Positions 3,413 through 28,218 of a stretch of 64,000 bases of DNA are shown one piece after another (the stretch's first letter is position 1; every line of letters starts with the position of its first letter). Position numbers and translations under genes: made by a program. The notes beneath the pieces were generated by a model, which had not been told where the DNA came from, did not search any database, and worked only from the letters and a program-made list of their open reading frames with translations. The stretch spans positions 1 to 64,000 of the forward strand of contig JAFLDS010000019.1 in NCBI GenBank assembly GCA_017302295.1. The letters run 5' to 3'. Source of the DNA: Thauera sp. GTDB lineage: Bacteria > Pseudomonadota > Gammaproteobacteria > Burkholderiales > Rhodocyclaceae.

Positions 3413-6100
3413 TCAGTCCTGCAGGTTCAACACGCCGAGCTTGACCGTGCTGTCATCGGGATCGTTGCTGAGCACGAAGCCGAGCTTTTGCACGAACTTG
3501 AGCATGCGGTCGTTGTTGGACAGGAAGATGCCGTTCATGTACTTAAGGCCGCGGTCGCGCGCCGTCTCGATGAGCACGCCCATCAGCTTGCGGGCGAGGC
3601 CGCGATGCTGCCAGTCGTCGACGACGACCACCGCGAACTCGCACGACTCGCCGTCCGGATTGACCGCGTAACGGCACACGCCGATCTCCGTTTCCACCCC
3701 GCCGACCATGACGGTCGCGAGGAAGGCCATCTCGCGGTCGTAGTCGATCTGCGTGAGCCGCGCCACCATGGCGGGCGGCAGCTCGCGCATCGTGTTCATG
3801 AAGCGGTAATACTTCGTCTCGGCCGACAGCCGGCTCATGAATTCGACCTCGAGCTCGGCATCCTCGGGCTTGATCGGGCGGATCGTCACCGCGGTGCCGT
3901 CCGGCACGATCCAGGTGCTGATGAGGTGCTGAGGATACGGGTGGATCGCCATGTGATCATAGCGATCGGCGGTCGGCGAGATGTTCTCGACCATGATGCG
4001 CGCGTCGACGGCGACCGCGCCGCATTCGTCCACGATCAGCGGGTTGATCTCCATCTCGGTGATCCACGGCAGCTCGCAGACCATTTCCGACACGCGCAAT
4101 AGCACCAGCTCGAGCGCGTCCATGTCGATCGCCGGCATATTGCGGAATTCGCCCAGGCGCGCCGAGATGCGGGTCGAGCGGATCATGTCCGCGACAAGGA
4201 AGCTGTTCAGCGGTGGCAGGGCGACCGCGAGGTCGGGATTTGCGTCGACGCTGTTGCCGCCTTCGCCGAAGGTGATCACCGGGCCGAAAGCCGGGTCGCG
4301 GCGCACGCCCACGACCAGTTCACGGCCGTTGCGCTTCTGGATCATGGGCTCGATGGCGATGCCGTTGACCTGGGCATCGGGCTGCGTCTTCTTCACCTCG
4401 TCCAGGATTTCCTGGTAGGTCGAGCGCACTGCCGCCAGGCTGCGGATGTTCAGGCGCACGCCGCCGACGTCCGACTTGTGCACGATGGCTGGCGAGTCGA
4501 TCTTCATCACCACCGGCAGGCCGATTTCGGCCGCCAGCACCATGGCCTCGGCCGCCGAGCGTGCCACCACCGTTTGCGCGATCGGAATGCGGAAGGCGGC
4601 GAGCAGCGCCTTCGATTCCATCTCGTTGAGTTTCTTGCGGTGTTCGCCGAGCGCCATCTCGATCACCAGGCGGGCGCTCTCGATCGAGGGCGGCGACAGA
4701 TGGGACAGCGAAGCCGGCGTCTGCATCAGCAGCTTCTGGTTGCGGTAGTAGGCCGAGATGTGGCTCATCAGCTCCACTGCCGGCTCGGGTGTGCGGAAGG
4801 TGGGGATGCCCGCCTCGATGAACTTGCTGCGCGCCTCGGCGACGAGCTCCTCGCCCATCCAGCAGGTCACCAGCGGCTTGTCGGAGGTCTTCTCGAGCTC
4901 GATGATGACGTCGGCAACGCCGGTCGGGTTGGTCATGGACTGCGGCGTCAGCACTACCAGCACGCCGTCGACGTTCGGGCCCTCGAGCACAGCCTGCACG
5001 GCCTTGCGGAAGCGTTCGGGGTCGGCGTCGCCGAGGATGTCGACAGGATTGCCGCGCGACCAGCTCGGTGGCAGTGCGGCATTGAGCTTCTCCATCGTGC
5101 CTTCGGAGAACTGCGCCAGCGGGATGCCGATATCGACTGCGCGGTCGGCCGCCATGACGCCCGGCCCGCCGCCATTGGTGATGATCGCGAGCCGGTTGCC
5201 GCGCGGGCGGAAGTGCGCGAACAGTGCGTTCGCCGCGGCGAAGAGCTGGCCCATGTTGTACAGGCGGATTACGCCGGCGCGACGCAGCGCGGCGTCGAAC
5301 ACGGCGTCGTCACCGAAGGCCGACGCCGAATGCGACAGGATCGCGCGCGAGACGTCGGGGTGACGCCCGGCCTTGATTAGCAGGACGGGCTTGACGCGGG
5401 CGGCGCCGCGCAACGCGCTCATGAAGCGGCGCGCGTCGCGCACGCCTTCCACGTACAGGAAGATGCTCTCGGTACGCGGGTCGGAAATCATGTAGTCGAG
5501 CACTTCGCCGAAGTCGATGTCCGACGAGGTGCCGAGCGATACCACCGCAGAGAAGCCGACGCCGTTGGGCTTGGCCCAGTCGAGAATGGCCGCGCACAGG
5601 GCGCCCGACTGCGAGATGAGACCGATGCTGCCCTTCAGGGCGCCCGCGTGCGCGAACGTGGCGTTGAGCCCGAGCTGCGGGCGGATGACGCCGAAACAGT
5701 TCGGCCCGAGCAGCCGGATGCGGTGGCGGTGTGCGGCATCCATGACCTGGCGTTCGAGCAGCGCGCCGCGCGGCCCGGCCTCGGAAAAGCCCGCCGATAG
5801 CACGACGACAGCCTTGACCCCCGCGCGTCCGCACGCATCGACGATTGCGGGTGTCAGTTCGGCGCGGACAGCGATGACGGCGAGGTCCAGCCGTTGAGGA
5901 ACATCCTCGATCGACTTGAAACAGGGCACGCCGTGCACCGACTCGTGCTTGGGGTTGATGGCGAACAGCTTGCCCCTGTAGCCGGCGCCGAGCATGTTGC
6001 GGATGAGGACGTCGCCCAGGGATGCTTCACGTTCGCTCGCGCCGATGATGCCGACCGAGGTGGGTTCGAGCAGCGGGGAGAGATAGTGCTTTTCGTTCAT
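3413..6100 (-). CDS. Fused acyl-CoA synthetase (NDP-forming)/GNAT acetyltransferase, Pat-like
   Basis: 895-residue fusion. Residues 1-130 are a CoA-binding Rossmann domain (SVGIIGASEREASLGDVL), followed by succinyl-CoA-ligase-like domains (IGLISQSGALCAAILDW), an ATP-grasp domain at roughly 490-700 (LPVVMKIDSPAIVHKSDVGG), and a C-terminal GNAT domain at roughly 730-890 (VVVVDDWQHRGLARKLMGVL is the acetyl-CoA loop). This is the architecture of the protein lysine acetyltransferase Pat/PatZ (YfiQ), which typically acetylates acetyl-CoA synthetase. In Pat proteins the ligase half is usually regarded as sensing rather than catalytic; whether that holds here cannot be judged from sequence alone. A GGGA sequence precedes the ATG. 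Confidence 0.88.
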   Translation of the reverse strand: MNEKHYLSPLLEPTSVGIIGASEREASLGDVLIRNMLGAGYRGKLFAINPKHESVHGVPCFKSIEDVPQRLDLAVIAVRAELTPAIVDACGRAGVKAVVVLSAGFSEAGPRGALLERQVMDAAHRHRIRLLGPNCFGVIRPQLGLNATFAHAGALKGSIGLISQSGALCAAILDWAKPNGVGFSAVVSLGTSSDIDFGEVLDYMISDPRTESIFLYVEGVRDARRFMSALRGAARVKPVLLIKAGRHPDVSRAILSHSASAFGDDAVFDAALRRAGVIRLYNMGQLFAAANALFAHFRPRGNRLAIITNGGGPGVMAADRAVDIGIPLAQFSEGTMEKLNAALPPSWSRGNPVDILGDADPERFRKAVQAVLEGPNVDGVLVVLTPQSMTNPTGVADVIIELEKTSDKPLVTCWMGEELVAEARSKFIEAGIPTFRTPEPAVELMSHISAYYRNQKLLMQTPASLSHLSPPSIESARLVIEMALGEHRKKLNEMESKALLAAFRIPIAQTVVARSAAEAMVLAAEIGLPVVMKIDSPAIVHKSDVGGVRLNIRSLAAVRSTYQEILDEVKKTQPDAQVNGIAIEPMIQKRNGRELVVGVRRDPAFGPVITFGEGGNSVDANPDLAVALPPLNSFLVADMIRSTRISARLGEFRNMPAIDMDALELVLLRVSEMVCELPWITEMEINPLIVDECGAVAVDARIMVENISPTADRYDHMAIHPYPQHLISTWIVPDGTAVTIRPIKPEDAELEVEFMSRLSAETKYYRFMNTMRELPPAMVARLTQIDYDREMAFLATVMVGGVETEIGVCRYAVNPDGESCEFAVVVVDDWQHRGLARKLMGVLIETARDRGLKYMNGIFLSNNDRMLKFVQKLGFVLSNDPDDSTVKLGVLNLQD

Positions 6101-6265: not shown

Positions 6266-7750
6266 TCAACGGCCGAGCGTGAAGTAGAACTTGCTGCCGG
6301 CGTCGGGCGTCGATTCTGCCCAGATCGTGCCTTCGTGGCGCTGAACGATGCGCTGGACGGTCGCCAGGCCGATTCCCGTTCCGGGAAAATCGTGGCTGTT
6401 GTGCAGGCGCTGGAAAGGGTGGAACAGTTTGGTGGCGAACTTCATGTCGAAACCGGCGCCATTGTCTTCCACGCAGAACACGCGGCGCTCGCCGTCGAGC
6501 TCCGCGCGAAAGGCAATGCGGGCGCGCGGCCGGCGCGACGAGAATTTCCACGCGTTACGCAGCAGGTTGTCCAGCATCGCGTGCATCAATACGCGATCGG
6601 CCGTTACGACCAGGCCTGCGGTGATCTCCACGTCGACCTGTCGCTCCGGGTTCTCCGCGCGCAGTTCGTCGATGATCAGCGTCGCGAGTGCTGAAAGGTC
6701 GAGCGATTCCTTGCGCAGTGGTTGGCGGCTGAGCGTGGCAAGCGCGATCAGGGCGTCGATCAGATCAGCCATGCGTTCGGCGGCCTTGCGGATCCGGTTC
6801 AGATGACTGCGGGTGGTGTCGTCAAGGCGCTCGGCCAGATCGTCCTCGAGGATGCGCGCAAAGCCGTCGATGGCCCGGAGCGGAGCGCGCAGGTCGTGAG
6901 ACACCGAATACGAGAACGCCTCCAGTTCGCGGGTCGAGGCCTCGAGTTCGGCGGTGCGCAGGCGTACGCGCGACTCGAGTTCCTGATTGAGGTTCTTGAG
7001 CGTCAGCTCTGCGACCTTGCGTGAGGAGATGTCGTCCAGCGTGCCGGCGAGGCTCCAGCCTGCGCGGCCAGGCTCCTCGACCACCCGGCCAGTGAGCTCG
7101 ATCCAGCGGATCTCGCCGCTGCGGGTGCGCAGGCGCAACTGGCAATGGCACTCGCGGCTCTCTCCCGTTGCCAGGGGGACGAATTTGTCGCGTGCCAGCG
7201 TACGGTCGTCGGGATGCAGGAAATCGATCAGCGGGCGTCCGAGCGACATCCCGATCTCGTAGCCAGACAGTCTCTTCCAGGCGCCATTCAGGAACAGCAA
7301 GTGCCCTTGCTGGTCGATCCGGAAGATCACCTCGCTCACCGATTCGAGCATGTCGCGATAGCGCTCCACGCTTTCCTGTAACGCGCGGTTCAGGCCTTCG
7401 AGGCCCAGGACAGCCGGCGCCCGTTCGGACGCCGCAGCGTCGGTCGCAACGGCGGGGTGCGTTTCGTCAGCGCAGCGGCCGCGCCGCGCGACGGCATAGC
7501 CAGTCAGGCCACCGAGCAGCACGCCGGCCGCCAGCCAGAGGACGCCGGACACGGCGAGGGTGTCGGATGCCGCATGGACCGACGGCGGGCTCAGCAGGGC
7601 TGCCAGCAACGCAAGCCCGTGAATGCGCTCACCGGTGTGACGGCGAAGTCGGGCACATCGGCTGTTGGCGCAGCGGCTTGGGCGTGAGCGGGGTCGGGGT
7701 GGGTGCAAGACTGTCTCGATTTCACTCGTGATGCGAAGCGAATCTAGCAC
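6266..7750 (-). CDS. PAS-domain sensor histidine kinase
   Basis: Sensor kinase of about 494 residues. A basic leader is followed by two hydrophobic stretches (GLALLAALLSPPSVHA, then SGVLWLAAGVLLGGLTGYAV), so it is probably membrane-anchored. Next come a PAS domain (YRDMLESVSEVIFRIDQQGHL), a short coiled coil, HisKA with the H-box FSYSVSHDLRAPLRAIDGFA, and HATPase_c with N-box NLLRNAWKFSS, G1 box DNGAGFD and GIGLATVQRIV. The output resembles phytochrome/bacteriophytochrome-type kinases. No response regulator is adjacent, so the partner is unknown. The start is uncertain: GTG at 7750 is used, TTG at 7609 is an alternative. Reading further upstream would run antisense through the methyltransferase and is unlikely. 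Confidence 0.85.
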   Translation of the reverse strand: MLDSLRITSEIETVLHPPRPRSRPSRCANSRCARLRRHTGERIHGLALLAALLSPPSVHAASDTLAVSGVLWLAAGVLLGGLTGYAVARRGRCADETHPAVATDAAASERAPAVLGLEGLNRALQESVERYRDMLESVSEVIFRIDQQGHLLFLNGAWKRLSGYEIGMSLGRPLIDFLHPDDRTLARDKFVPLATGESRECHCQLRLRTRSGEIRWIELTGRVVEEPGRAGWSLAGTLDDISSRKVAELTLKNLNQELESRVRLRTAELEASTRELEAFSYSVSHDLRAPLRAIDGFARILEDDLAERLDDTTRSHLNRIRKAAERMADLIDALIALATLSRQPLRKESLDLSALATLIIDELRAENPERQVDVEITAGLVVTADRVLMHAMLDNLLRNAWKFSSRRPRARIAFRAELDGERRVFCVEDNGAGFDMKFATKLFHPFQRLHNSHDFPGTGIGLATVQRIVQRHEGTIWAESTPDAGSKFYFTLGR

Positions 7751-15844: not shown

Positions 15845-18800
15845 TCAGGCTTTCACCGCGTCGAGCAGATCCCTTACAGCCTTCACCCGCTGCTGCAGGT
15901 CGGGCAGGGCGGCGCGGCGTACGAGCTTCTCTGGGCCGCTCATCCTGGTGTTGCGGTCCTTCTGGATCAGCATGATCACCTTTACCGGGTCGATCGGCGC
16001 GTCCTTGGCGAATTGCACGGTGATCTGGGCGTCGGACGCATCGAGCTTCTGTACGCCATAGTCCTTCACCAGCATGCGCAGGCGGTGGGTTTCGACCAGT
16101 GCGACGGTTTGCGGTGCAAGCTCGCCAAAGCGGTCGATCAGCTCCTCGCGCAGCGCCCGCAGATCGTCGTCCGATTCACAGTTGGCCAGGCGCTTGTAGA
16201 GGGTCAGACGCTCCTGCACGTCGGGGCAGTAGTCGGTGGGCAGCAGCGCCGGGGTGTGCAGGTTAATCTCCGACACCACCTCTAGCGGCTGCGACAAATC
16301 CGGCTCCTTGCCCGCCTGCAGATCCTTCACCGCCCGCTTGAGCATCTCGGTGTAAAGGCTGAAGCCGACCTGCTGGATCTCGCCCGACTGGTTCTCACCC
16401 AGCACCTCGCCCGCGCCGCGGATCTCGAGGTCGTGCATCGCCAGGTAGAAGCCCGAGCCGAGCTCTTCCATCATCGCGATCGCTTCGAGTCTTTTCTGCG
16501 CCTGCGCGGTGGGCTTCGCATGCGCGTCGGTGAGCAGGTAGGCGTAGGCCTGGTGGTGCGAGCGGCCGACGCGGCCGCGCAGCTGGTGCAGCTGCGCCAG
16601 GCCGAAGCGGTCGGCGCGGTGGATGATGATGGTGTTGGCGGTGGGGATGTTGATGCCGGTTTCGATGATGGTGGTGCACAGCAGCAGATTGGCCCGCTGC
16701 TGCGTGAAGTCGCGCATCACCCGCTCGAGCTCGCGCTCGGGCAACTGGCCGTGGCCGACCACGATGCGTGCTTCGGGCACCAGTTCCTCGAGGTCCTTGC
16801 GCATGTTCTCGATGGTGTCGACCTCGTTGTGCAGGAAGTACACCTGGCCGCCGCGCTTGAACTCGCGCAGTACGCCCTCGCGGATCACGCCGCGGCTGGA
16901 GGGCTGGACGAAGGTCTTGATCGCCAGCCGCTTTTGCGGCGCTGTGGCGATCACCGAGAACTCTCGCAGGCCTTCCATCGCCAGGCCCAGGGTGCGGGGA
17001 ATCGGTGTCGCAGTGAGGGTGAGGATGTCGACCTCGGAGCGCAGCTGCTTGAGCGCCTCCTTCTGGCGCACGCCGAAACGGTGTTCCTCGTCGATCACCA
17101 CCAGCCCCAGGCGCTTGAACACCACGTCCTTCTGCAGCAGGCGGTGGGTGCCGATGATGATGTCGACCTTGCCCTCGGAGAGCTGCTGCAGGGCTTCGGC
17201 CTGCTCCTTGGCGGACTTGAAGCGTGACAGCTCGGCGATACGGATCGGCCACTCGGCGAAGCGATCGGCGAAGGTCTGGTAGTGCTGCTCGGCGAGCAGC
17301 GTCGTCGGACACAGCACCACGACCTGCTTGCCGTCCTGCACCGCGATGAAGGCTGCGCGCAGCGCGACCTCGGTCTTGCCGAAACCAACGTCGCCGCATA
17401 CCAGGCGGTCCATCGGGCGGCCGGATTTCATGTCGGCCACCACCGCGTCGATGGCCGCCTGCTGGTCGGGCGTGGTCTCGAAACCGAAACCTTCGGCGAA
17501 GCCTTCCAGGTCGTGCTGCTTGAAGTCGAAGCGGTGTCCCGGCCGGGCGGCGCGCTGCGCATAAAGCGCGAGCAGCTCGGCTGCGGTGTCGCGCACCTGC
17601 ATCGCGGCCTTCTTCTTCGCCTTCTCCCACTGGCCCGAGCCGAGCCGGTGCAGCTCGACCGCTTCCGGGTCGGCGCCGGCATAGCGGGTGATGACGTGCA
17701 GCTGGGAAACGGGGACGTAGAGCTTGTCGCCGCCGTTGTACTCGAGGTGCAGGAACTCGGTGTCGCCTTCGCCCAGGTTCATGTGCAGCAGGCCGAGGTA
17801 GCGGCCGATACCGTGCGATACATGCACCACCGGGTCGCCCACCTTCAGCTCGGACAGGTCGCGCAGCCAGCCTTCCATGGTGGCGGCCTTGCGGCTGTCG
17901 CGCCGCACGCGGCTGCGTGCGGTGGCGGCGTAGAGCTCGGTCTCGGTGACGACGGCGAGCTTTGCGCGCGGCAGCACGAAGCCGTTCGCCAGCGGCGCGA
18001 CGCCCAGCGCGAAACGCGCGCCGGAGTCGACGAAGCCGGCAAAGTCGGCGGCGGGCTCCGGCTTCAGGTCGTATTCGGCCAGATACTCGGCCATGGTCTC
18101 GCGGCGGCCGGGGGAGTCGGCCAGCAGCAGCACGCGGCCGTCGAAGGCGTTGCGAAACGCCTTCAGCTTCTGCAGCGGATCACTCGCCTTGCGCTCCACC
18201 GCGAGCTCGGGCAGCGCTTGGGCAAGCGGGTCGCCGCTGCCTTCGTTCAGCGTGAGGCGCGGGCGGTCCTTCAGTGCGACGAAGAAGGCCTCATCGGTCA
18301 GGAAGAGCTGTTCGGGCGGCAGCACCGGGCGCGTGCGATCGCCCTTGAGCAAGTCGTGCCGCGAGCGGGTGTCGCGCCAGAACTCGGCAATCGCGGCAGG
18401 CACGTCGCGGTGCAGCAGCACCGGCGTGTCGGTGGGCAGATAGTCGAGCAGCGTCGCGGTGTCGTCGAAGAACAGCGGCAGGTAGTACTCGATACCGGCC
18501 GGGGCGATGCCGTTGGACACGTCCTTGTAGATCGCCGCGCGCGTCGGGTCGCCCTCGAAGGTCTCGCGGAAGCGGCTGCGAAAGCGCGTGCGCCCCTTCT
18601 CGTCGAGCGGAAACTCCCGCGCCGGCAGCAGGCGGATCTTGGGCACCGGATACACCGTGCGCTGGGTGTCCGGATCGAAAGTCTTGATGCTCTCGATCTC
18701 GTCGTCGAACAGGTCGATGCGGTAGGGCAGCGGCGAGCCCATCGGGAACAGGTCCACCAGCCCGCCGCGCACCGAGAACTCGCCCGGGCTCACCACCTGT

Positions 18801-19282
18801 GTGACATGCGTGTAGCCGGCCACCGCCATCTGCGCGCGGAACTGGTCAACGTCGAGGCGCTTTCCCTGCTGCAGGAAGAAGGTGTAGGCGGCCAGATAGG
18901 CGGGCGGCGCCATGCGGTAAAGCGCGGTCGAGGCCGGGGCCAGCACGATGTCGGCCTCGCCGCGGCTGATCGCGTACAGCGTCGACAGACGCTCGGAGAT
19001 CAGGTCCTGGTGCGGCGAAAAGCTGTCGTAGGGCAGGGTTTCCCAGTCGGGCAGCAGGTGCAGGCGCAGGCCGGGCGCTGCCCAGGCGATCTCGTCCTGC
19101 AGGCGCTGGGCGTCGAGAGGGTTGGCGGTAATCACCAGGAGCATGCGCCCGCGGCTGGCGAGTTGCGCGATTGCCAGTGCATCGGCAGAGCCTGCCAGCG
19201 GCGGCAGGTCGAAGCGTCCGCCCGGCTTGGGCAGTGCGAGCAGGGCGAGGGAAGGCAGCAGCGAGTCTAGTGAGGCAGGCAT
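15845..19282 (-). CDS. mfd: Transcription-repair coupling factor Mfd
   Basis: 1145 residues, full length. Mfd removes RNA polymerase stalled at DNA lesions and recruits UvrA. N-terminal UvrB-homology region (ITANPLDAQRLQDEIAWAAP; DLFPMGSPLPYRIDLFDDEI), RNA-polymerase-interacting domain (VGDPVVHVSHGIGRYLGL), then the RecG-like translocase: Walker A CGDVGFGKTEVALRAAF, DEEH box VVIDEEHRFGV, TATPIPRTL, and motif VI QLRGRVGRS, ending with the C-terminal TRCF domain. Start ATG at 19282 opens MPASLDSLLPSL. Downstream corA follows closely on the same strand. Confidence 0.97.
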   Translation of the reverse strand: MPASLDSLLPSLALLALPKPGGRFDLPPLAGSADALAIAQLASRGRMLLVITANPLDAQRLQDEIAWAAPGLRLHLLPDWETLPYDSFSPHQDLISERLSTLYAISRGEADIVLAPASTALYRMAPPAYLAAYTFFLQQGKRLDVDQFRAQMAVAGYTHVTQVVSPGEFSVRGGLVDLFPMGSPLPYRIDLFDDEIESIKTFDPDTQRTVYPVPKIRLLPAREFPLDEKGRTRFRSRFRETFEGDPTRAAIYKDVSNGIAPAGIEYYLPLFFDDTATLLDYLPTDTPVLLHRDVPAAIAEFWRDTRSRHDLLKGDRTRPVLPPEQLFLTDEAFFVALKDRPRLTLNEGSGDPLAQALPELAVERKASDPLQKLKAFRNAFDGRVLLLADSPGRRETMAEYLAEYDLKPEPAADFAGFVDSGARFALGVAPLANGFVLPRAKLAVVTETELYAATARSRVRRDSRKAATMEGWLRDLSELKVGDPVVHVSHGIGRYLGLLHMNLGEGDTEFLHLEYNGGDKLYVPVSQLHVITRYAGADPEAVELHRLGSGQWEKAKKKAAMQVRDTAAELLALYAQRAARPGHRFDFKQHDLEGFAEGFGFETTPDQQAAIDAVVADMKSGRPMDRLVCGDVGFGKTEVALRAAFIAVQDGKQVVVLCPTTLLAEQHYQTFADRFAEWPIRIAELSRFKSAKEQAEALQQLSEGKVDIIIGTHRLLQKDVVFKRLGLVVIDEEHRFGVRQKEALKQLRSEVDILTLTATPIPRTLGLAMEGLREFSVIATAPQKRLAIKTFVQPSSRGVIREGVLREFKRGGQVYFLHNEVDTIENMRKDLEELVPEARIVVGHGQLPERELERVMRDFTQQRANLLLCTTIIETGINIPTANTIIIHRADRFGLAQLHQLRGRVGRSHHQAYAYLLTDAHAKPTAQAQKRLEAIAMMEELGSGFYLAMHDLEIRGAGEVLGENQSGEIQQVGFSLYTEMLKRAVKDLQAGKEPDLSQPLEVVSEINLHTPALLPTDYCPDVQERLTLYKRLANCESDDDLRALREELIDRFGELAPQTVALVETHRLRMLVKDYGVQKLDASDAQITVQFAKDAPIDPVKVIMLIQKDRNTRMSGPEKLVRRAALPDLQQRVKAVRDLLDAVKA

Positions 19283-19391: not shown

Positions 19392-19979
19392 TCAGGCGTA
19401 CGTGTCCACCCGCATCCCTGACTGGGGTCGCTGTGGCGGGTCGGCCGAGTCGGACGCGCTGCTGCGATAGGCGGCGTCGGCCACGCGCAATTGCCCGTTG
19501 CCGGGCTGGGCCGCAATCTCCATGCGCGCCTCCATCGCCATCCGGCTCGCCTGCGCTGCCACCTGGCGGTCGGTGCCCGAGGGCTCGGCGGGGGCGAGCG
19601 CGGCGGCGCGGATGCGTTCGGCCTTGTCCAGCGTTTCCTGGGGCGTGCGTCCGCGGGAGGTGTCGATACTGACTTCGCCGCCGACTGCATAGCGCTGCCC
19701 GTCCGGCCCCGTCTCGAAACTGTAGGTGGCGCCACGGACCACCAGACCGGCGCCCGCAGCCATGTGCGCCTGCTCGTGTGCGCGTACTTCGCGGTCGCGC
19801 TTCGCGAGTTCGGAAATCGTCTGGCGGTCGGTTTCGCTGAGGGCGGCTTCATCGGTCGCGCGCGGCTGCATTCGTGCAGCGGACGAGTTTTCGCGCACAC
19901 CCGCGCCTGCTGCGCTGGATGGCGACAGGTAGCTCGATGAATAGGCGGCGCTCGCGCCACCGATGGAGGAAACGGACAT
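19392..19979 (-). CDS. SprA-family putative metalloprotease-related protein
   Basis: About 195 residues. The N-terminus is Ser/Ala-rich low complexity (residues 1-35). The core contains LAKRDREVRAHEQAHMAAGAG, with an HExxH zinc-binding motif (HEQAH), then SFETGPDGQRYAVGGEVSID and a helical Ala/Arg/Met-rich C-terminus. These are marks of the SprA-related family (putative metalloprotease, CJM1_0395-like), whose function is unknown. I chose ATG at 19979 because coding upstream of it becomes arginine-rich and antisense-like; a GAGGG lies about 15 bases before it, so the ribosome site is not ideal. Confidence 0.8.
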   Translation of the reverse strand: MSVSSIGGASAAYSSSYLSPSSAAGAGVRENSSAARMQPRATDEAALSETDRQTISELAKRDREVRAHEQAHMAAGAGLVVRGATYSFETGPDGQRYAVGGEVSIDTSRGRTPQETLDKAERIRAAALAPAEPSGTDRQVAAQASRMAMEARMEIAAQPGNGQLRVADAAYRSSASDSADPPQRPQSGMRVDTYA

Positions 19980-20852: not shown

Positions 20853-21953
20853 CTAGTTGCGATGAATGTCCACCGGAATCCGTCGTGCGCCGAAGGCTGC
20901 TCCGAAGGTGCCGAAGCGTCCGGCCAGTGCGGTGCCGCAATCCGGGCAGGTGCCCTCGGGCGTGACGAAGTAGTCGCGAATCTCGTACCAGTCGCGCACG
21001 ATCAGTGGCCTGGCGCAACCCGTGCAGAAGGTGGTTCCCCCCTCAACGTCGTGCACGTTGCCGGTGTAGACGTGTCTGAGCCCGTTGCCCAGCGCGATGC
21101 GCCGCGCGCGCATGAGCGTGGCGGGTGGGGTGGGTGGCAGGTCGTCCATCTTGAAATCGGGATGGAAGGCGGTAAAGTGCAGCGGCACTTCGCTGCCGAG
21201 TTCCTTGCACACCCAGCGCGTCATCGCATCGAGTTCGTCATCGGAGTCGTTGTGGCCGGGAATGAGCAGGGTGGTGATCTCTACCCAGACATCGGTCTCG
21301 TGGCGCAGCCAGACCAGGGTGTCGAGGACAGGCTGCAAATGGGCGCCACATAGCTTGACGTAGAAATCGTCGGTGAAGCCCTTCAGGTCCAGATTGGCCG
21401 CGTCCATCTTTGCGTAGAAGTCGCCACGCGCCAACGCGGTGATGTAGCCCGCCGTCACCGCTACCGTTTTCAAGCCGAGGGCGTGACACGCGTCGGCGGT
21501 GTCCATGGCGTATTCGGCGAAGATCACCGGATCGTTGTAGGTGAAGGCGACGCTGGCACAGCCGTGGCGTGCCGCGGTCGCGGCGATCTCGGTCGGCGAG
21601 GCGGCATCCATCAGGCGGTCCATGTCGCGCGACTTCGAGATGTCCCAGTTCTGGCAGAACTTGCACGCCAGGTTGCACCCGGCGGTACCGAACGAGAACA
21701 CGCTGCTGCCGGGGTAGAAATGATTCAGCGGTTTCTTTTCGATCGGATCGATGCAGAAGCCCGAACTGCGCCCGTAGGTGGTGAGCACGATGCCGTCGCC
21801 CTCGCGCATGCGCACGAAGCAGGCGCCACGCTGCTCGTCATGGAGCTTGCAATAGCGCGGACACAGGTCGCACTGGATGCGGCCGTCGTCGATCCTGTGC
21901 CAATAGCGTCCTGGATAGTTTCCCGAGTGTTGCCCGGCTGTGGCGACCATCAT
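20853..21953 (-). CDS. amrS: AmmeMemoRadiSam system radical SAM enzyme
   Basis: About 366 residues. Radical SAM protein with an N-terminal cysteine cluster (CDLCPRYCKLHDEQRGAC), the 4Fe-4S binding CxxxCxxC in TAGCNLACKFCQNWD, the SAM-binding region FTYNDPVIFAEYAMDTADAC, and a C-terminal rubredoxin-like pair of CxxC motifs (FCTGCARP, CPDCG). It resembles the pyruvate-formate-lyase-activating-enzyme family and is the R component of the AmmeMemoRadiSam genome-context system, whose substrate is to my knowledge unresolved. ATG at 21953 overlaps the stop of the AMMECR1-like gene (ATGA); an adjacent ATG at 21950 has GGAGG at better spacing. Confidence 0.92.
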   Translation of the reverse strand: MMVATAGQHSGNYPGRYWHRIDDGRIQCDLCPRYCKLHDEQRGACFVRMREGDGIVLTTYGRSSGFCIDPIEKKPLNHFYPGSSVFSFGTAGCNLACKFCQNWDISKSRDMDRLMDAASPTEIAATAARHGCASVAFTYNDPVIFAEYAMDTADACHALGLKTVAVTAGYITALARGDFYAKMDAANLDLKGFTDDFYVKLCGAHLQPVLDTLVWLRHETDVWVEITTLLIPGHNDSDDELDAMTRWVCKELGSEVPLHFTAFHPDFKMDDLPPTPPATLMRARRIALGNGLRHVYTGNVHDVEGGTTFCTGCARPLIVRDWYEIRDYFVTPEGTCPDCGTALAGRFGTFGAAFGARRIPVDIHRN

Positions 21954-22519
21954 GCCTCCCTGGGTGCTTCCTCCCACTTGTCGACGCTGTAGCGCGCGGC
22001 CATCAGGCCGTCGACGGGCCTATCCACCGGCATGCCGGCCTTGCGCTTGAGTGCACCGAGGAAGTCTCGCGGCTCGGGCAACTGCTCCCATACCTGCGGC
22101 AGGAAGGTGGCGCTGCCGCAGCCGGCGAACAGGATCAGGCCGTCCTCGTGCGGGCGCAGCTGACGCAGCAGGTCAGGCTCGTCGGTGAATTCGATGAAGT
22201 CGGGCTCGGACAACAGCGACACCTCGACCTGAACCTGATCGAATTCCTGTGCCGACAAGGGCGGGAAACGAGGATCGCGGAACGCGGCCGAGACGGCGTT
22301 GATGATGACGTCCTCGCCGAGCCGCCGCTGACGGCGCAGGCTGCCGATGCAGCCGCGCAATTCGCCGCCGAGGGTCAGGGTGACGAACGTGGCGCCGCGC
22401 TCCTGCAGACGCGGATCGGCGCCGACCTCGGCGGCCGGCCTGAGGCCGAGGTGATGGGCGATGGCGTCGCGGGCAAGCTTCAACAGCATGCCGCCCAGAT
22501 CAGTGCTGGCGTGATTCAT
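21950..22519 (-). CDS. amrA: AmmeMemoRadiSam system protein A (AMMECR1 domain)
   Basis: 189-residue AMMECR1-domain protein. The signature LRGCIGSLRRQRRLGEDVI and AAFRDPRFPPLSAQEFDQV are present, followed by LSEPDFIEF and the C-terminal GCGSATFLPQVWEQLPEP. The family is found from bacteria to man; its role is unknown, although the conserved Cys and acidic residues suggest an enzyme. The start at 22519 lies 20 bp inside the upstream MEMO1-like gene, and the stop overlaps the radical SAM start, so the three are likely translated together. Confidence 0.92.
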   Translation of the reverse strand: MNHASTDLGGMLLKLARDAIAHHLGLRPAAEVGADPRLQERGATFVTLTLGGELRGCIGSLRRQRRLGEDVIINAVSAAFRDPRFPPLSAQEFDQVQVEVSLLSEPDFIEFTDEPDLLRQLRPHEDGLILFAGCGSATFLPQVWEQLPEPRDFLGALKRKAGMPVDRPVDGLMAARYSVDKWEEAPREA

Positions 22520-23324
22520 AGGGAACCTGTTCGAAGAAGGCGATGCTGGCATAGCCGACCACGCTATCGCGCGGGCCTGCGGTGTCGCCCGAATTGCGCA
22601 TGTCGAGCAGTTGCGTGCGCAGGCCGTGGCGGCGTGCCACGCGGACGAGTCCGTTGATGGGCGTCGCACCGCAGGCCTGCTCGTGATCGAGCGGAGCACC
22701 GAGGCTCAGCACCTGATCCACCGAGAGGGTGTCGATAGAGCAGGCTTCGCGGTAGCGATGGAAATGCGACAGGTCGGAGCTGATCACGATCAAGGTCTCC
22801 GGCCCGCCCCACAGGCTCTCGAGCACCTGCGCAACCGCCTCGTCGCTTGCGCCGCCAACCAGCAAGGGCACCAGTTCGAAGCGGCCCAGCATGGTCTGCA
22901 GGAAGGGCAACTGCACCTCGAGGCAATGCTCGAGTGCGTGCGGCCTGTCGTCGACGATCACATCAGGCCGCTCATGGAGCGCCAACCAGTCGCTCTGGCT
23001 CAGCGGCACCTCGCCCAGCGGGGTCATGAAACCCTGTGACGCTGGCAGGGCAAAGGCGTGGACCGCCATACGGTGGGCCGGTCCAAGCAGCACGACGCGG
23101 CGGATCTGCTCGCGTATCGGCGCAAGGCTCGCGTAAGCAGCCGCGGCCACCGCGCCGGAGTAGATGTAGCCCGCATGCGGCACGATGATCGCCTTGGGTG
23201 CAGCGGCGCTTTCCGGCGGAATGGCCGCGGCGAGAAACTCGGTGAGTTGCGCCTGAAGAACGCGGTGATCGTCCGGATAGAAGAGACCCGCAACGGCTGC
23301 GGGACGAATGGAGGCGATGGCCAT
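22500..23324 (-). CDS. amrB: AmmeMemoRadiSam system protein B (MEMO1 family)
   Basis: About 274 residues, MEMO1/LigB-like dioxygenase fold. RPAAVAGLFYPDD near the start, KAIIVPHAGYIYSGAVAA with one candidate metal His, LLGPAHRMAVH with a second, and QACGATPING with the conserved Cys correspond to the His/His/Cys metal site known in MEMO proteins. ISSDLSHFHRY is another conserved block. Start ATG at 23324 opens MAIASIRPAAVAG; reading further upstream gives Trp/Ala-rich sequence unlike the family. It is the first gene of the trio, 61 bp after the DUF4010 gene. Confidence 0.92.
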   Translation of the reverse strand: MAIASIRPAAVAGLFYPDDHRVLQAQLTEFLAAAIPPESAAAPKAIIVPHAGYIYSGAVAAAAYASLAPIREQIRRVVLLGPAHRMAVHAFALPASQGFMTPLGEVPLSQSDWLALHERPDVIVDDRPHALEHCLEVQLPFLQTMLGRFELVPLLVGGASDEAVAQVLESLWGGPETLIVISSDLSHFHRYREACSIDTLSVDQVLSLGAPLDHEQACGATPINGLVRVARRHGLRTQLLDMRNSGDTAGPRDSVVGYASIAFFEQVPYESRQH

Positions 23325-23385
23325 GGCGTATCCAGCTTGCAGCGGTCCGGAAAAGACCGCGACCTGACAGGTGGTTCCAGATTCA

Positions 23386-24660
23386 TTATAGGCCCACGCC
23401 GCCCATGCCGCTCCAGGCCAGCCCCGCACCCAGCCCGAGCGCCACCACCGCCATTCCGGGCAGCGTCTGCGTGCCCAGCGAGCGGCCGCCCAGCGCGAAG
23501 CTGAGTGTCGTCTTGAAGACCAGGTTTGCGATCATCGCCAGCATCACGCTGACGACGGTCGCATCAAGCTGCAACCGTTCCAGCGTGAACAGCCGCAGCG
23601 TCGACAGCACGATGGCGTCGACATCGGTCAGGCCGGACACGACGGCGAGGACGTAAAGGCCGCTGTTGCCGACCTTGTCGGAAAGCCAGGCGGCGCAGAG
23701 CAGCACGACCGCGTAAAGTGCGCCGAAACCGAGCGCGGTGCGTAACTCCGTCGGGTTGCCGGTCGCAGGCCGCACAAGGGGGCCGCCGTTGCCCAAACGG
23801 CGCCAGTAGAACAGGATGGTCAGAGCGCCCAGGACCAATCCGGGCACCAGCGCCGTCGCGAGCGAGGCAATTGCCGCCGGTGCCACCACTGCGGCGAGCA
23901 CTGCCACGCGCAGTACCATCACCAGATTGGCGAGAATGATGACCAGCGCAGCGACGCTGCCCATCTCCGGCGCGGATTTCGCCTGCCTCGCATAAACCAT
24001 CGTGGTCGCGGTGCTGGACGCCAGCCCGCCGAAAACGCCGACGAAGGCGGTGCCGTAGCGCGGACCGGCGAATTGCAGCGCTGCGTAGCCGGCGAGGCTC
24101 ACGCCCGAGATCAGCACCACCATCCACCACAACTGATAGGGGTTGAGCGCACCGTGCGGGCCGAACTCCTCGTTGGGCAGGATAGGAAGGATGACGAGTG
24201 AAAGCACTCCGAACTGCAGGATCGAGATCCAGTCGCGCGCATCGAGCCGTGTCGCCATGCCGCGCAGCTGCGCCTTGAAGTAGAGCAGCACCGTCGTGCC
24301 GACCGCGAGCATCACGGCGAGCTTTGCATAGCCCAGCCAGACCGCGGCACCGAGGCAGTAGCACACCAGCAGGGCCGCGACCGAGGTCGTGCCCGGGTCC
24401 GACGGATCGGGGTGCAACAGGTAGGCGGCAACGATGGTGATGCCGATGAGGGCCAGCCCGGTGACGAGGGGTGCGGCGCTGTGCAGGTGCTCGCCCAGGA
24501 GGGCGGTCAGCGCGCCGAACATGCCGACCAGGCCGAAAGTGCGCAGCCCGGCCCGCGCCGAGGGAATGCGCTCGCGCTCGAGGCCGATCAGCATGCCGAT
24601 GCCGATGGCGATCAGGAAGGCTTCGATCTGTTCGGGCGACACCGGTGTGGCGGCAGGCAT
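23386..24660 (-). CDS. MgtC/SapB-type membrane protein with DUF4010
   Basis: About 424 residues and highly hydrophobic, with roughly 11-12 membrane segments. The N-terminal half has MgtC-like features (AIGIGMLIGLERER near residue 20, GLRTFGLVGMFGAL), and the C-terminal half is DUF4010 (GVFGGLASSTATTMVYARQ, VSGLTDVDAIVLSTLRLF). Transport or ion-homeostasis function is likely but the substrate is unknown. The ATG at 24660 has GAGGAGA about 10 bases upstream. It lies directly upstream of the AmmeMemoRadiSam genes on the same strand and diverges from ispD. Confidence 0.88.
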   Translation of the reverse strand: MPAATPVSPEQIEAFLIAIGIGMLIGLERERIPSARAGLRTFGLVGMFGALTALLGEHLHSAAPLVTGLALIGITIVAAYLLHPDPSDPGTTSVAALLVCYCLGAAVWLGYAKLAVMLAVGTTVLLYFKAQLRGMATRLDARDWISILQFGVLSLVILPILPNEEFGPHGALNPYQLWWMVVLISGVSLAGYAALQFAGPRYGTAFVGVFGGLASSTATTMVYARQAKSAPEMGSVAALVIILANLVMVLRVAVLAAVVAPAAIASLATALVPGLVLGALTILFYWRRLGNGGPLVRPATGNPTELRTALGFGALYAVVLLCAAWLSDKVGNSGLYVLAVVSGLTDVDAIVLSTLRLFTLERLQLDATVVSVMLAMIANLVFKTTLSFALGGRSLGTQTLPGMAVVALGLGAGLAWSGMGGVGL

Positions 24661-24791
24661 CGTGATGTTCTCCTCGAGGCGTTGGCCCGTTCTTTCGGGT
24701 GGGCTGCGTCGCCCGAAACTATAGCCTCGCGGCGGTGCCGCGGGCAGCGCCTCGCCGACCTGAGTCCGCGCGCGACGGTAGAATGCGCGGC

Positions 24792-25502
24792 ATGCAAAAC
24801 TTTCATCCTCGCCATTTCGCCATTGTTCCGGCTGCGGGCAGCGGCTCGCGCATGGGCGCAAGGCAGCCCAAGCAGTATCTGCCCTTGCTGGGCAAGCCCC
24901 TGATTCACCACGCGCTTGCGGTGCTGTGCGGCGCGCCTGCCATCGACAGGGTGTATGTGGTGCTGTCGGTCGACGATGCCGAGTGGGCGCGTCACGACTG
25001 GCGCGCGCTCGGTCCCAAACTGGTGCCCCTGTTCTGCGGCGGGGCGACCCGGGCGGACAGCGTCCTGGGCGGCTTGCGGGCGATTGCAGGGGAGGCGGCG
25101 CCGTCGGACTGGGTGCTGGTACATGACGCGGCGCGCCCTTGCCTCGCATCGTGGCACGTGGAGAGGCTGGTGCGCGAACTCGCGCACGACGAGGTGGGCG
25201 GGCTGCTCGCAGTGCCCGTCGCCGATACGCTGAAGCGCGCGGACGAACACCGCCACGTGGCGGCTACCGTGCCGCGCGACAGCCTGTGGCAGGCGCAGAC
25301 GCCGCAGATGTTCCGCTACGTCATGCTGCGTCGTGCGCTGGAAGGCGCGACCGACGTGACCGACGAAGCGAGCGCCATCGAGGCGGCCGGACTGCGTCCG
25401 CGCCTGGTCCAGGGCGACGCGACTAACCTGAAGGTGACCTATCCGCTGGACCTGCATCTGGCCGAATGGATCTTGCAGAACCGCGAAGGAGGCGAACAAT
25501 GA
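24792..25502 (+). CDS. ispD: 2-C-methyl-D-erythritol 4-phosphate cytidylyltransferase
   Basis: Third step of the MEP isoprenoid pathway: MEP plus CTP to CDP-methylerythritol. 236 residues, the usual length. Nucleotide-binding signature [24 protein letters not shown] (glycine-rich loop plus the conserved Lys), [30 protein letters not shown] and [13 protein letters not shown] at 24792 matches family starts; ATG at 24783 is 9 bp upstream. Its stop overlaps the ispF start by ATGA, the common ispDF arrangement. Confidence 0.96.
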
Positions 25503-25993
25503 ACGTGGCGTTTCGGATCGGACAGGGGTTCGATGTGCATGCATTGGTGGCGGGGCGCCCGCTGATCATCGGCGGCGTGCGAATCCCCCATGATCGTGGC
25601 CTGCTCGGGCATTCGGACGCCGACGTGCTGCTGCATGCGCTCACCGATGCGCTGCTGGGTGCGGCAGGGCTGGGTGATATCGGCCGCCTGTTTCCCGACA
25701 CCGACGAGAAGCACTCGGGCGCCGACAGCCGCGTGCTGCTGCGCGAGGCGTGGTCACGCGTCCGCGCGGCGGGGTGGGAGGTTGTCAACGTCGATGCGAC
25801 GGTGATCTGCGGAGCGCCGAAGATCCTCCCGCACGCGCCCGCGATGGTCGCCAACATCGCCGCCGACCTCGGCATGGACCCGGCCGCCGTCAATATCAAG
25901 GGCAAGACCACCGAGAAGCTGGGTTTCACCGGCCGTGGTGAGGGGATCGCCGCGCAGGTTGTCGCCCTGCTCGGGCGCGCATCGCATGCCTGA
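25499..25993 (+). CDS. ispF: 2-C-methyl-D-erythritol 2,4-cyclodiphosphate synthase
   Basis: Fifth step of the MEP pathway, forming the cyclic diphosphate. 164 residues, full length. Conserved zinc site [11 protein letters not shown] (Asp and His), [53 protein letters not shown] and the C-terminal [20 protein letters not shown] precedes the ATG at ideal distance. Downstream, thpR begins within its last codons. Confidence 0.97.
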
Positions 25994-27432: not shown

Positions 27433-28218
27433 TCATGCCCGGGCAGCGTTGTCGGCGAGCCGGCGTTCGCCGCTTGCGGGATCGACACCATAGAACGCGG
27501 CGAGTTGGGCGTACATCGCGGGATAGCGCTGTGCGAGCCGGCAAGGTGTTTCAAAGAAGGACTCTGACGCCACCGCAAAGAACTCCCCGGGATGCTCGGC
27601 GCCATAGGGATCGAGCACCGTCTCGACGCCCGCGTCCACCTCCCGGCAGAAGTCTTCATAGGCGCTGGAAAACGCCTCGGCCCATACCGCGCGCGACATC
27701 TGGGCAGGCAGCCGGGGGAGACCGTCGACGCCGCCATTCTCCATGTCGAGCTTGTGCGCGAACTCATGGATCACCACATTCACGCCGTCAGGCGCCTCGT
27801 TCGCGTCGAACCACGACAGCAACACCGGCCCGCCTTCCCAGGCTTCGCCCAGGACTTCATCGTCGTACTCGTGCACCACGCCGGCTTCGTCCATCTCGTG
27901 CCGCCGGATGACGAAATCACCCGGGTAGATCACCACGCCGATCCAGCTGCGGTAGGCATCGAGCCCGCTGCGCAGGATCGGCAGGCAGGCCTGCAGCGAG
28001 ATGCTGAGCAGCATCTCGTCGGTCAGGCGCAGCCCATGGGCGCCGTGGAACTGCTTGCCGGTGAGAAAGCCCTGCGCCAGAACGCGCAGGCGCTGGCGAT
28101 CAGCCGCCTGCAGAAAGGCGAGAAAAGGGAGGCTGCGCTCGACCTTGGTCCACATCTCGTCCGGTATGACCGGGGGGTCGCGCGTAAGGCCGAGCCATCG
28201 GGAAAGCGTGTGCAACAT
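27433..28218 (-). CDS. mtfA: MtfA-type zinc metallopeptidase (M90)
   Basis: 261 residues, matching MtfA, a cytosolic zinc peptidase which in E. coli binds the Mlc repressor of glucose PTS genes. The HExxH site is VVIHEFAHKLDMENGGVDG; a further Glu lies in the VDAGVETVLDPYGAEHPGEFFA block, where the third ligand is expected. Conserved SWIGVVIYPGDFVI and VLLSWFDANEAP are visible. Whether Mlc exists in this organism is unknown. The start at 28218 is 35 bp from the divergent relA start. Confidence 0.9.
   Translation of the reverse strand: MLHTLSRWLGLTRDPPVIPDEMWTKVERSLPFLAFLQAADRQRLRVLAQGFLTGKQFHGAHGLRLTDEMLLSISLQACLPILRSGLDAYRSWIGVVIYPGDFVIRRHEMDEAGVVHEYDDEVLGEAWEGGPVLLSWFDANEAPDGVNVVIHEFAHKLDMENGGVDGLPRLPAQMSRAVWAEAFSSAYEDFCREVDAGVETVLDPYGAEHPGEFFAVASESFFETPCRLAQRYPAMYAQLAAFYGVDPASGERRLADNAARA

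Follow-up and report, generated by a model that had tools for sequence, protein, structure and literature searches.

The AmmeMemoRadiSam trio of the Thauera window

For neither of the human genes MEMO1 and AMMECR1 is the primary molecular function settled. In prokaryotes, their orthologs go together with a single radical S-adenosylmethionine (SAM) enzyme, in the set known as AmmeMemoRadiSam. We analysed one such set from Thauera sp. (GenBank assembly GCA_017302295.1), located in a stretch of 64,000 nucleotides at positions 1 to 64,000 of contig JAFLDS010000019.1 (hereafter, the window). All three genes are present and adjacent, and the window shows no difference from the described system. Family identity was assigned with NCBIfam models and their curated cut-offs, together with Pfam, and each of the three proteins scores above the cut-off of its model (Table 1). 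The host genome, 4.1 Mb in 53 contigs, contains a single match to the radical SAM model. These results show that the AmmeMemoRadiSam operon of the window is complete, is of the cytosolic type and lies in the slot between ispDF and mfd used by its family, and the window is therefore an ordinary member of a known set whose function is unsettled. The best lead on that function is not the window copy but a sister clade, in which many of the proteins carry export-signal-like leaders.

An original prediction made from the sequence of the window had placed the three genes in one run with overlaps of 20 and 4 bases, 61 bases behind a DUF4010 gene, and this layout was confirmed from the sequence: the order on the minus strand is DUF4010, MEMO-like, AMMECR1-like and radical SAM, and a second ATG (21950) immediately follows that of the radical SAM gene. 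The trio was also rightly called a recognised conserved set, as all three models are above cut-off and most genomes have all of the genes or none. The statement that no bacterial reaction is settled likewise holds, in that the literature searched gave no paper settling one.

We compared the three proteins with the closest described ones. Human MEMO1 (PDB 7kq8) belongs to the sequence family of the MEMO-like protein and shares its two His ligands; it differs in that human cells are not known to have a radical SAM partner of this kind. In the alignment, which covers residues 7-192, H50 and H84 of the window protein match the human iron ligands H49 and H81, and C218, which lies outside the alignment, probably corresponds to the human ligand C244 by position and conservation. 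The three human ligands are those given in PMC11081632, which also names Glu as the third iron ligand of LigB, so that the window type, with Cys in third place, departs from the two-His-one-Glu site of LigB-type extradiol dioxygenases. The iron-ligand residues are near invariant across 56 window-type and 79 other rows (n = 135), and the third position is Cys in 98% and 99% of the two sets. Metal-binding and Cys residues are also near invariant in 129 AMMECR1 rows, where C57 of the LRGCIG motif is kept, and in 109 radical SAM rows. The AMMECR1 fold model gave confident Foldseek matches only to AMMECR1 structures, and the idea that AMMECR1 is a disguised known fold was dropped for that reason.

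The radical SAM enzyme has its CX3CX2C motif at C93/C97/C100, four N-terminal Cys (C28, C31, C35 and C45) and four C-terminal Cys (C310, C313, C336 and C339). The motif and the N-terminal four are conserved; the window type retains the C-terminal four, whose conservation is laxer in the other rows (C313 in 43%). The best PDB match of its fold model (mean predicted local distance difference test score, pLDDT, 90.7) was pyruvate formate-lyase (PFL) activase 3cb8, with an E-value of 2e-13, a template modelling (TM) score of 0.81 by target and 19% identity, and this activase was the sole match in a search with the sequence. The PFL activating enzyme (3cb8, 3c8f), with which it shares the CX3CX2C core, is the nearest solved structure by both measures. 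However, the window enzyme reaches 32 to 54 bits on three PFL-type models, far under their cut-offs (TIGR02493, 53.9 bits versus 231.75; the other activase models are also under cut-off), and it has four extra Cys near each end.

Export-signal-like leaders in a sister clade

We scanned species genomes with ten MEMO-AMMECR1 fusions, which gave 293 confirmed stretches, and took the best 80 of these as scan loci. A MEMO match was found in 79 loci and an AMMECR1 match in 74, with both in one open frame in 73. A signal-like leader is present on MEMO in 53 of the 79 loci, including 12 with a lipobox-like Cys, compared to 0 of 56 window-type proteins; the MEMO-like protein of the window was itself inspected for such a leader and has none. 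In a radical SAM tree of 107 rows, built with a quick method, two groups, 31 rows whose MEMO bears a signal and 53 cytosolic rows, each fall on one side of a branch with 100% support in the Shimodaira-Hasegawa-like approximate likelihood ratio test (SH-aLRT), and 23 rows belong to neither group. The sister clade differs from the described AmmeMemoRadiSam system in its export-type leaders and in that MEMO and AMMECR1 are mostly fused; one of its subclades also has a tiny gene with a twin-arginine motif. We found no description of the export-type clade or of the tiny gene in the literature searched, a search that did not pair twin-arginine signals with the set and did not extend to the 2019 superfamily paper.

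Export-like starts also occur on the radical SAM enzyme. With the leader rule used for MEMO, a signal-like start is found on 7 of 46 radical SAM proteins of the exported side and on 0 of 62 cytosolic ones; a 47th exported-side locus (L152), which lacks an anchor, was left out of this count. A twin-arginine-like start, defined as [RK]Rx followed by two of a hydrophobic set, was seen in 9 of 26 exported-side loci outside the tiny-gene clade (L126, L142, L144, L153, L157, L163, L170, L183 and L186), in 0 of 21 within it and in 0 of 62 cytosolic loci. L144 is doubtful, as a clear hydrophobic stretch is missing, and a looser rule, RRx[FLIVM], is matched by two cytosolic rows. With such a start, the radical SAM enzyme would sit at the membrane or beyond the cytosol. 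To our knowledge, radical SAM enzymes are known only as intracellular, SAM-fed enzymes. The radical SAM proteins of L145 and L156 begin with a hydrophobic helix instead, and in the Bacteroidota loci L153, L157, L163, L183 and L186 the MEMO-AMMECR1 gene lies 2.5-2.8 kb from the radical SAM gene.

The tiny gene came to light through extra radical SAM copies in ten genomes that first showed one TGA inside. Selenocysteine was dropped as an explanation, because the TGA is a natural stop that overlaps the start of the next gene. This holds in all eleven loci that were read (L031-L041), where the next gene has 47-91 codons and a twin-arginine motif. A MEMO-AMMECR1 fusion then follows on the same strand in nine of them; the fusion of L039 is about 9 kb away, and in L041 an AMMECR1 match alone was found. 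Defined as a gene of 40-125 codons with the motif, the tiny gene stands behind radical SAM in 20 of 21 subclade loci, 18 of them ending in Gly, and in 0 of 26 other exported-side and 0 of 62 cytosolic loci, with the reservation that clade and rule were chosen after the peptides had been seen and that two of the 21 loci have identical enzymes. The subclade comprises Magnetococcales, several gammaproteobacteria, one Planctomycetia bin and one record titled Deltaproteobacteria, and most tiny-gene loci also have a MEMO gene with a signal-like leader, usually fused to AMMECR1. Loci with the tiny-gene form are L031-L041, L107-L112, L114-L119, L121, L123, L125, L131, L134, L158, L159 and L177.

We collected 22 tiny peptides, of which 21 satisfy the motif rule and 20 have a C-terminal Gly (e.g. 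ADFYRPHDLAG). One of six scanned against NCBIfam passes a twin-arginine signal model and another has weak matches, three of five scanned against Pfam have weak matches, and none matched a precursor family of ribosomally synthesized and post-translationally modified peptides (RiPPs) above cut-off. A small gene directly behind a radical SAM gene resembles radical SAM RiPP systems, and the peptide may alternatively be a substrate of the enzyme. However, the small protein resembles the missing front end of the enzyme more than a precursor. Enzymes of the tiny-gene clade begin directly at the first Cys motif, whereas nearly all others have an aromatic-pair segment before it, and the last 11 residues of the tiny proteins beat all of 2000 shuffles on profiles of the missing segment, both cytosolic and exported. 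The tiny gene looks more like the front end of the enzyme, signal included, which would have been split off and placed behind the enzyme gene. Several results qualify this. Because the tiny peptides are related to each other, the shuffle test is too favourable, and the profile scores sum to negative values. When the whole tiny protein is used as a profile, its matches to enzyme N-termini are weak (best E 0.006), and some cytosolic rows fall below the threshold. Finally, the register of the last 11 residues is the best within the peptide in 6 of 22 cases for the cytosolic profile and 0 of 22 for the exported one.

Cohesion of the trio and readings of its reaction

In the host family (61 genomes), 46 genomes have all three genes, and in 45 of these the order is MEMO, AMMECR1, radical SAM with gaps under 300 bases between model matches. 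In G026 (L051), 1,270 bases separate the AMMECR1 and radical SAM matches and the rest of the neighbourhood is very similar; one further family genome (G030) has the radical SAM gene alone, on a 3.9 kb contig. A phylum-wide sample of 398 genomes contained all three genes in 94 cases, none in 287 and part of the set in 17. The genes of the trio are mostly kept or lost together. Among 95 genomes with both MEMO and radical SAM, the pair lies within 3 kb on the same strand in 52, within 3 kb on opposite strands in 9, on different contigs in 32 and farther apart on one contig in 2. Because of the opposite-strand and different-contig cases, the link between MEMO and radical SAM is independent of adjacency.

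Among the 45 other loci of the family, 5 have MEMO and AMMECR1 in a single open frame. In 36 of the 40 unfused loci, MEMO ends beyond the closest in-frame start of AMMECR1, although choosing the closest start favours overlaps. The predicted frame overlaps exceed chance. The production of the three proteins in fixed proportion, which the original prediction derived from these overlaps, is a conjecture. In the radical SAM tree, four of the five fused family loci cluster and the fifth lies elsewhere, which suggests at least two MEMO-AMMECR1 fusions.

Radical SAM genes also occur apart from the trio. Three genomes, G442 (L187), G260 (L188) and G277 (L050), have a TIGR04337-level radical SAM gene and no MEMO or AMMECR1 match, the match in G277 being in two pieces. 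A distant subfamily, ~34% identical to the window protein and over the TIGR04337 cut-off, is found at L045 (G190), L046 (G082) and L047 (G129), where the locus has no MEMO match. In two genomes of one genus (G074 and G066), in which radical SAM lies apart from MEMO, a gene that appears Fur-like by eye adjoins it (L189, about 4877-5368; L190, about 6722-7180).

The common phyletic pattern, the fusions and the apparently shared export state lead us to favour one assembly, and we give an even chance to the view that the three proteins share a substrate and act on it together within a single compartment. With its CX3CX2C cluster, the radical SAM enzyme would form a 5'-deoxyadenosyl radical and abstract a hydrogen from the substrate, MEMO would perform the next step at a two-His, one-Cys iron site on a dioxygenase-like fold, and AMMECR1, often fused to MEMO, would hold the substrate or hand it over. 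The window trio would act in the cytosol, and the parts of the sister-clade set would be exported by their own export-type leaders or by one supplied by the tiny gene; the whole trio seems to move together there. A bolder proposal, which we regard as rather doubtful, is that one AmmeMemoRadiSam branch works wholly outside the cytoplasm, radical SAM enzyme included, that the enzyme of the tiny-gene subclade is exported riding on the tiny protein, and that the window trio is the cytosolic form of the same machine. If the sister clade does export the whole set, the three proteins must meet in one place. Radical SAM chemistry beyond the cytosol would then be a rarity, if not a first, and would be surprising.

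A number of observations weigh against a shared and, in one branch, exported assembly. Humans and yeast both possess MEMO (PMC11081632). Neither is known to have a radical SAM enzyme of this kind. Controls split the set as well, since Thermus composti has MEMO without AMMECR1 and Haloferax volcanii has AMMECR1 without MEMO. Of the 17 partial genomes, nine lack just the radical SAM gene and keep MEMO with AMMECR1, in five the radical SAM gene stands by itself, one has MEMO only and two have other pairs; many of the nine are incomplete drafts, and one of them (G398) is listed as 100% complete. As for export, 17 of the 26 exported-side radical SAM proteins outside the tiny-gene clade lack a twin-arginine-like start, with some frames cut or starts unsure. 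The leader calls rest on simple rules made for this analysis, and the scan was seeded with exported proteins, so that cytosolic fusions are under-sampled.

Small-molecule and polypeptide substrates come out about even; the dioxygenase-like iron site points to the former and the nearest fold and the relatives in peptide systems point to the latter. It is possible, and we hold it tentatively, that the trio converts a metabolite, such as the nucleobase or isoprenoid that a 2019 paper on the superfamily reportedly proposed. The fold matches of the radical SAM model include QueE, an enzyme with a small-molecule substrate, and ispD is divergently oriented beside the trio slot in the family, as well as in a single genome from another family (L103). 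The ispDF neighbours, however, are unchanged in trio-less genomes, so the isoprenoid neighbourhood is uninformative and this link was dropped as evidence. PMC11081632 cuts both ways, describing the MEMO fold and iron site as common to extradiol dioxygenases and reporting no dioxygenase activity of human MEMO1 on the substrates tried. The radical SAM enzyme might instead modify MEMO, AMMECR1 or another polypeptide, which we consider somewhat doubtful. PFL activase, its best match by fold and sequence, modifies a protein glycine and was crystallised with a peptide. Peptide-processing conflict systems include a radical SAM domain akin to the Memo-Ammecr1 one (PMC7159879), and Memo-like proteins are fused to RiPP recognition elements (PMC12710340). 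However, no open reading frame of 40-125 codons starts at the end of the radical SAM gene in the window, and a strict C-terminal pattern finds no match in the genome. In the sister clade, the tiny peptide more closely resembles a detached front end of the enzyme, and the export-type starts of some radical SAM proteins remove the argument that the enzyme must act before MEMO is exported.

An unlikely reading is that the set serves iron or redox balance, with MEMO binding iron and the other two proteins installing or protecting its metal site at low oxygen. The iron-site residues are conserved, and human MEMO1 binds iron (PMC11081632). AMMECR1 is present in 3.38% of 4,227 aerobes and 50.66% of 1,293 anaerobes, and has the top importance score among seven anaerobe markers in a 20-Pfam set (PMC13386939), a bias that also suits oxygen-sensitive chemistry in the favoured assembly. 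The Fur-like neighbour of the solitary radical SAM gene would fit this reading as well, but that link comes from two genomes of a single genus. Moreover, human MEMO1 binds iron although human cells are not known to have such a radical SAM enzyme, and radical chemistry is unnecessary for iron loading. No report that such a trio makes an oxindole was found in the literature searched.

Neighbouring genes in the ispDF-mfd slot

The original prediction proposed that the DUF4010 gene and the downstream hydrolase could widen the operon. If DUF4010, the trio, the hydrolase-like gene and the SprA-like gene formed one functional operon, DUF4010 might transport the substrate or product of the trio. In line with this, 22 of 46 family trio genomes have DUF4010 and MEMO on one strand and no more than 1 kb apart. 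Of the 45 other family loci, 20 have the hydrolase-like gene close behind radical SAM, and the SprA-like gene was found in 4. However, presence of DUF4010 is not clearly linked to that of the trio (27/46 genomes versus 5/15 without the full trio; Fisher p 0.14). Outside the family, where 80 of the 99 genomes having the radical SAM gene were covered, DUF4010 was beside the trio in none, though 11 have it: 7 on another contig than radical SAM and 4 on the same contig, about 79 kb off in G423 and much more in the others. In addition, DUF4010 is still divergent from ispD in the trio-less relatives G042, G057 and G059. It is followed by the hydrolase-like gene in G057 and G059, and in G057 by the SprA-like gene and mfd too; there, the stretch separating the hydrolase-like gene from DUF4010 contains a frame on the opposite strand that looks unrelated.

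The wider operon was dropped because the adjacency is confined to the family and the neighbours persist without the trio. One operon with DUF4010 as its transporter is largely refuted, and we consider it very improbable. The prediction was to be judged by whether a conserved neighbourhood extends beyond the trio; none does outside the family, whereas within it DUF4010 keeps its place in the 22 genomes. DUF4010, the hydrolase-like gene and the SprA-like gene are at home in the ispDF-mfd neighbourhood, where the trio too has its place, and the extra neighbours of the window trio look like a local coincidence. A promoter scan gave one match, on the other strand, with 0.8 expected by chance.

Table 1. 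Features of the trio locus and its surroundings in the window
Feature	Coordinates	Strand	Evidence and remarks
DUF4010/MgtC membrane protein	23386..24660	minus	PF13194 201 bits, PF02308 (MgtC) 73 bits; neighbour of trio
MEMO-like protein (AmmeMemoRadiSam system protein B), 274 aa	22500..23324	minus	TIGR04336 256 bits (cut-off 26), PF01875 168 bits; start ATG at 23324, stop codon ending at 22500
AMMECR1-like protein (system protein A), 189 aa, LRGCIG motif (C57)	21950..22519	minus	TIGR04335 180 bits (cut-off 99), PF01871 146 bits; ATG at 22519, ends 21950
Radical SAM enzyme, 366 aa	20853..21953	minus	TIGR04337 631 bits (cut-off 220); ATG at 21953, ends 20853
MEMO-like/AMMECR1-like frame overlap, 20 bases	22500..22519	minus	sequence; frames likewise overlapping or fused in frame in most of the other 45 loci of the family
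AMMECR1-like/radical SAM frame overlap, 4 bases (ATGA)	21950..21953	minus	sequence; GGGAGG just 5' of radical SAM start
Hydrolase-like protein (by eye), 227 aa	20084..20767	minus	neighbour; no Pfam match at E 10
SprA-related protein	19392..19979	minus	PF12118 96 bits on 19392-19895; neighbour
ispD and ispF, divergent from DUF4010	24777..25993	plus	gene order by tblastn in family loci; names by eye
mfd	15845-19282	minus	name by eye; with ispDF frames trio slot

For the downstream genes, the name SprA-like is borne out by a match to a SprA-related Pfam model, whereas the name alpha/beta hydrolase did not stand, as it was given by eye and the protein has no Pfam match even at the loosest setting in Table 1. 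The window was scanned for tRNA genes and, at gathering score, for Rfam families, and none was found. Near the trio, a gene for an MtfA-like M90 peptidase is present on the minus strand at 27433-28218 (Peptidase_M90, 289 bits).

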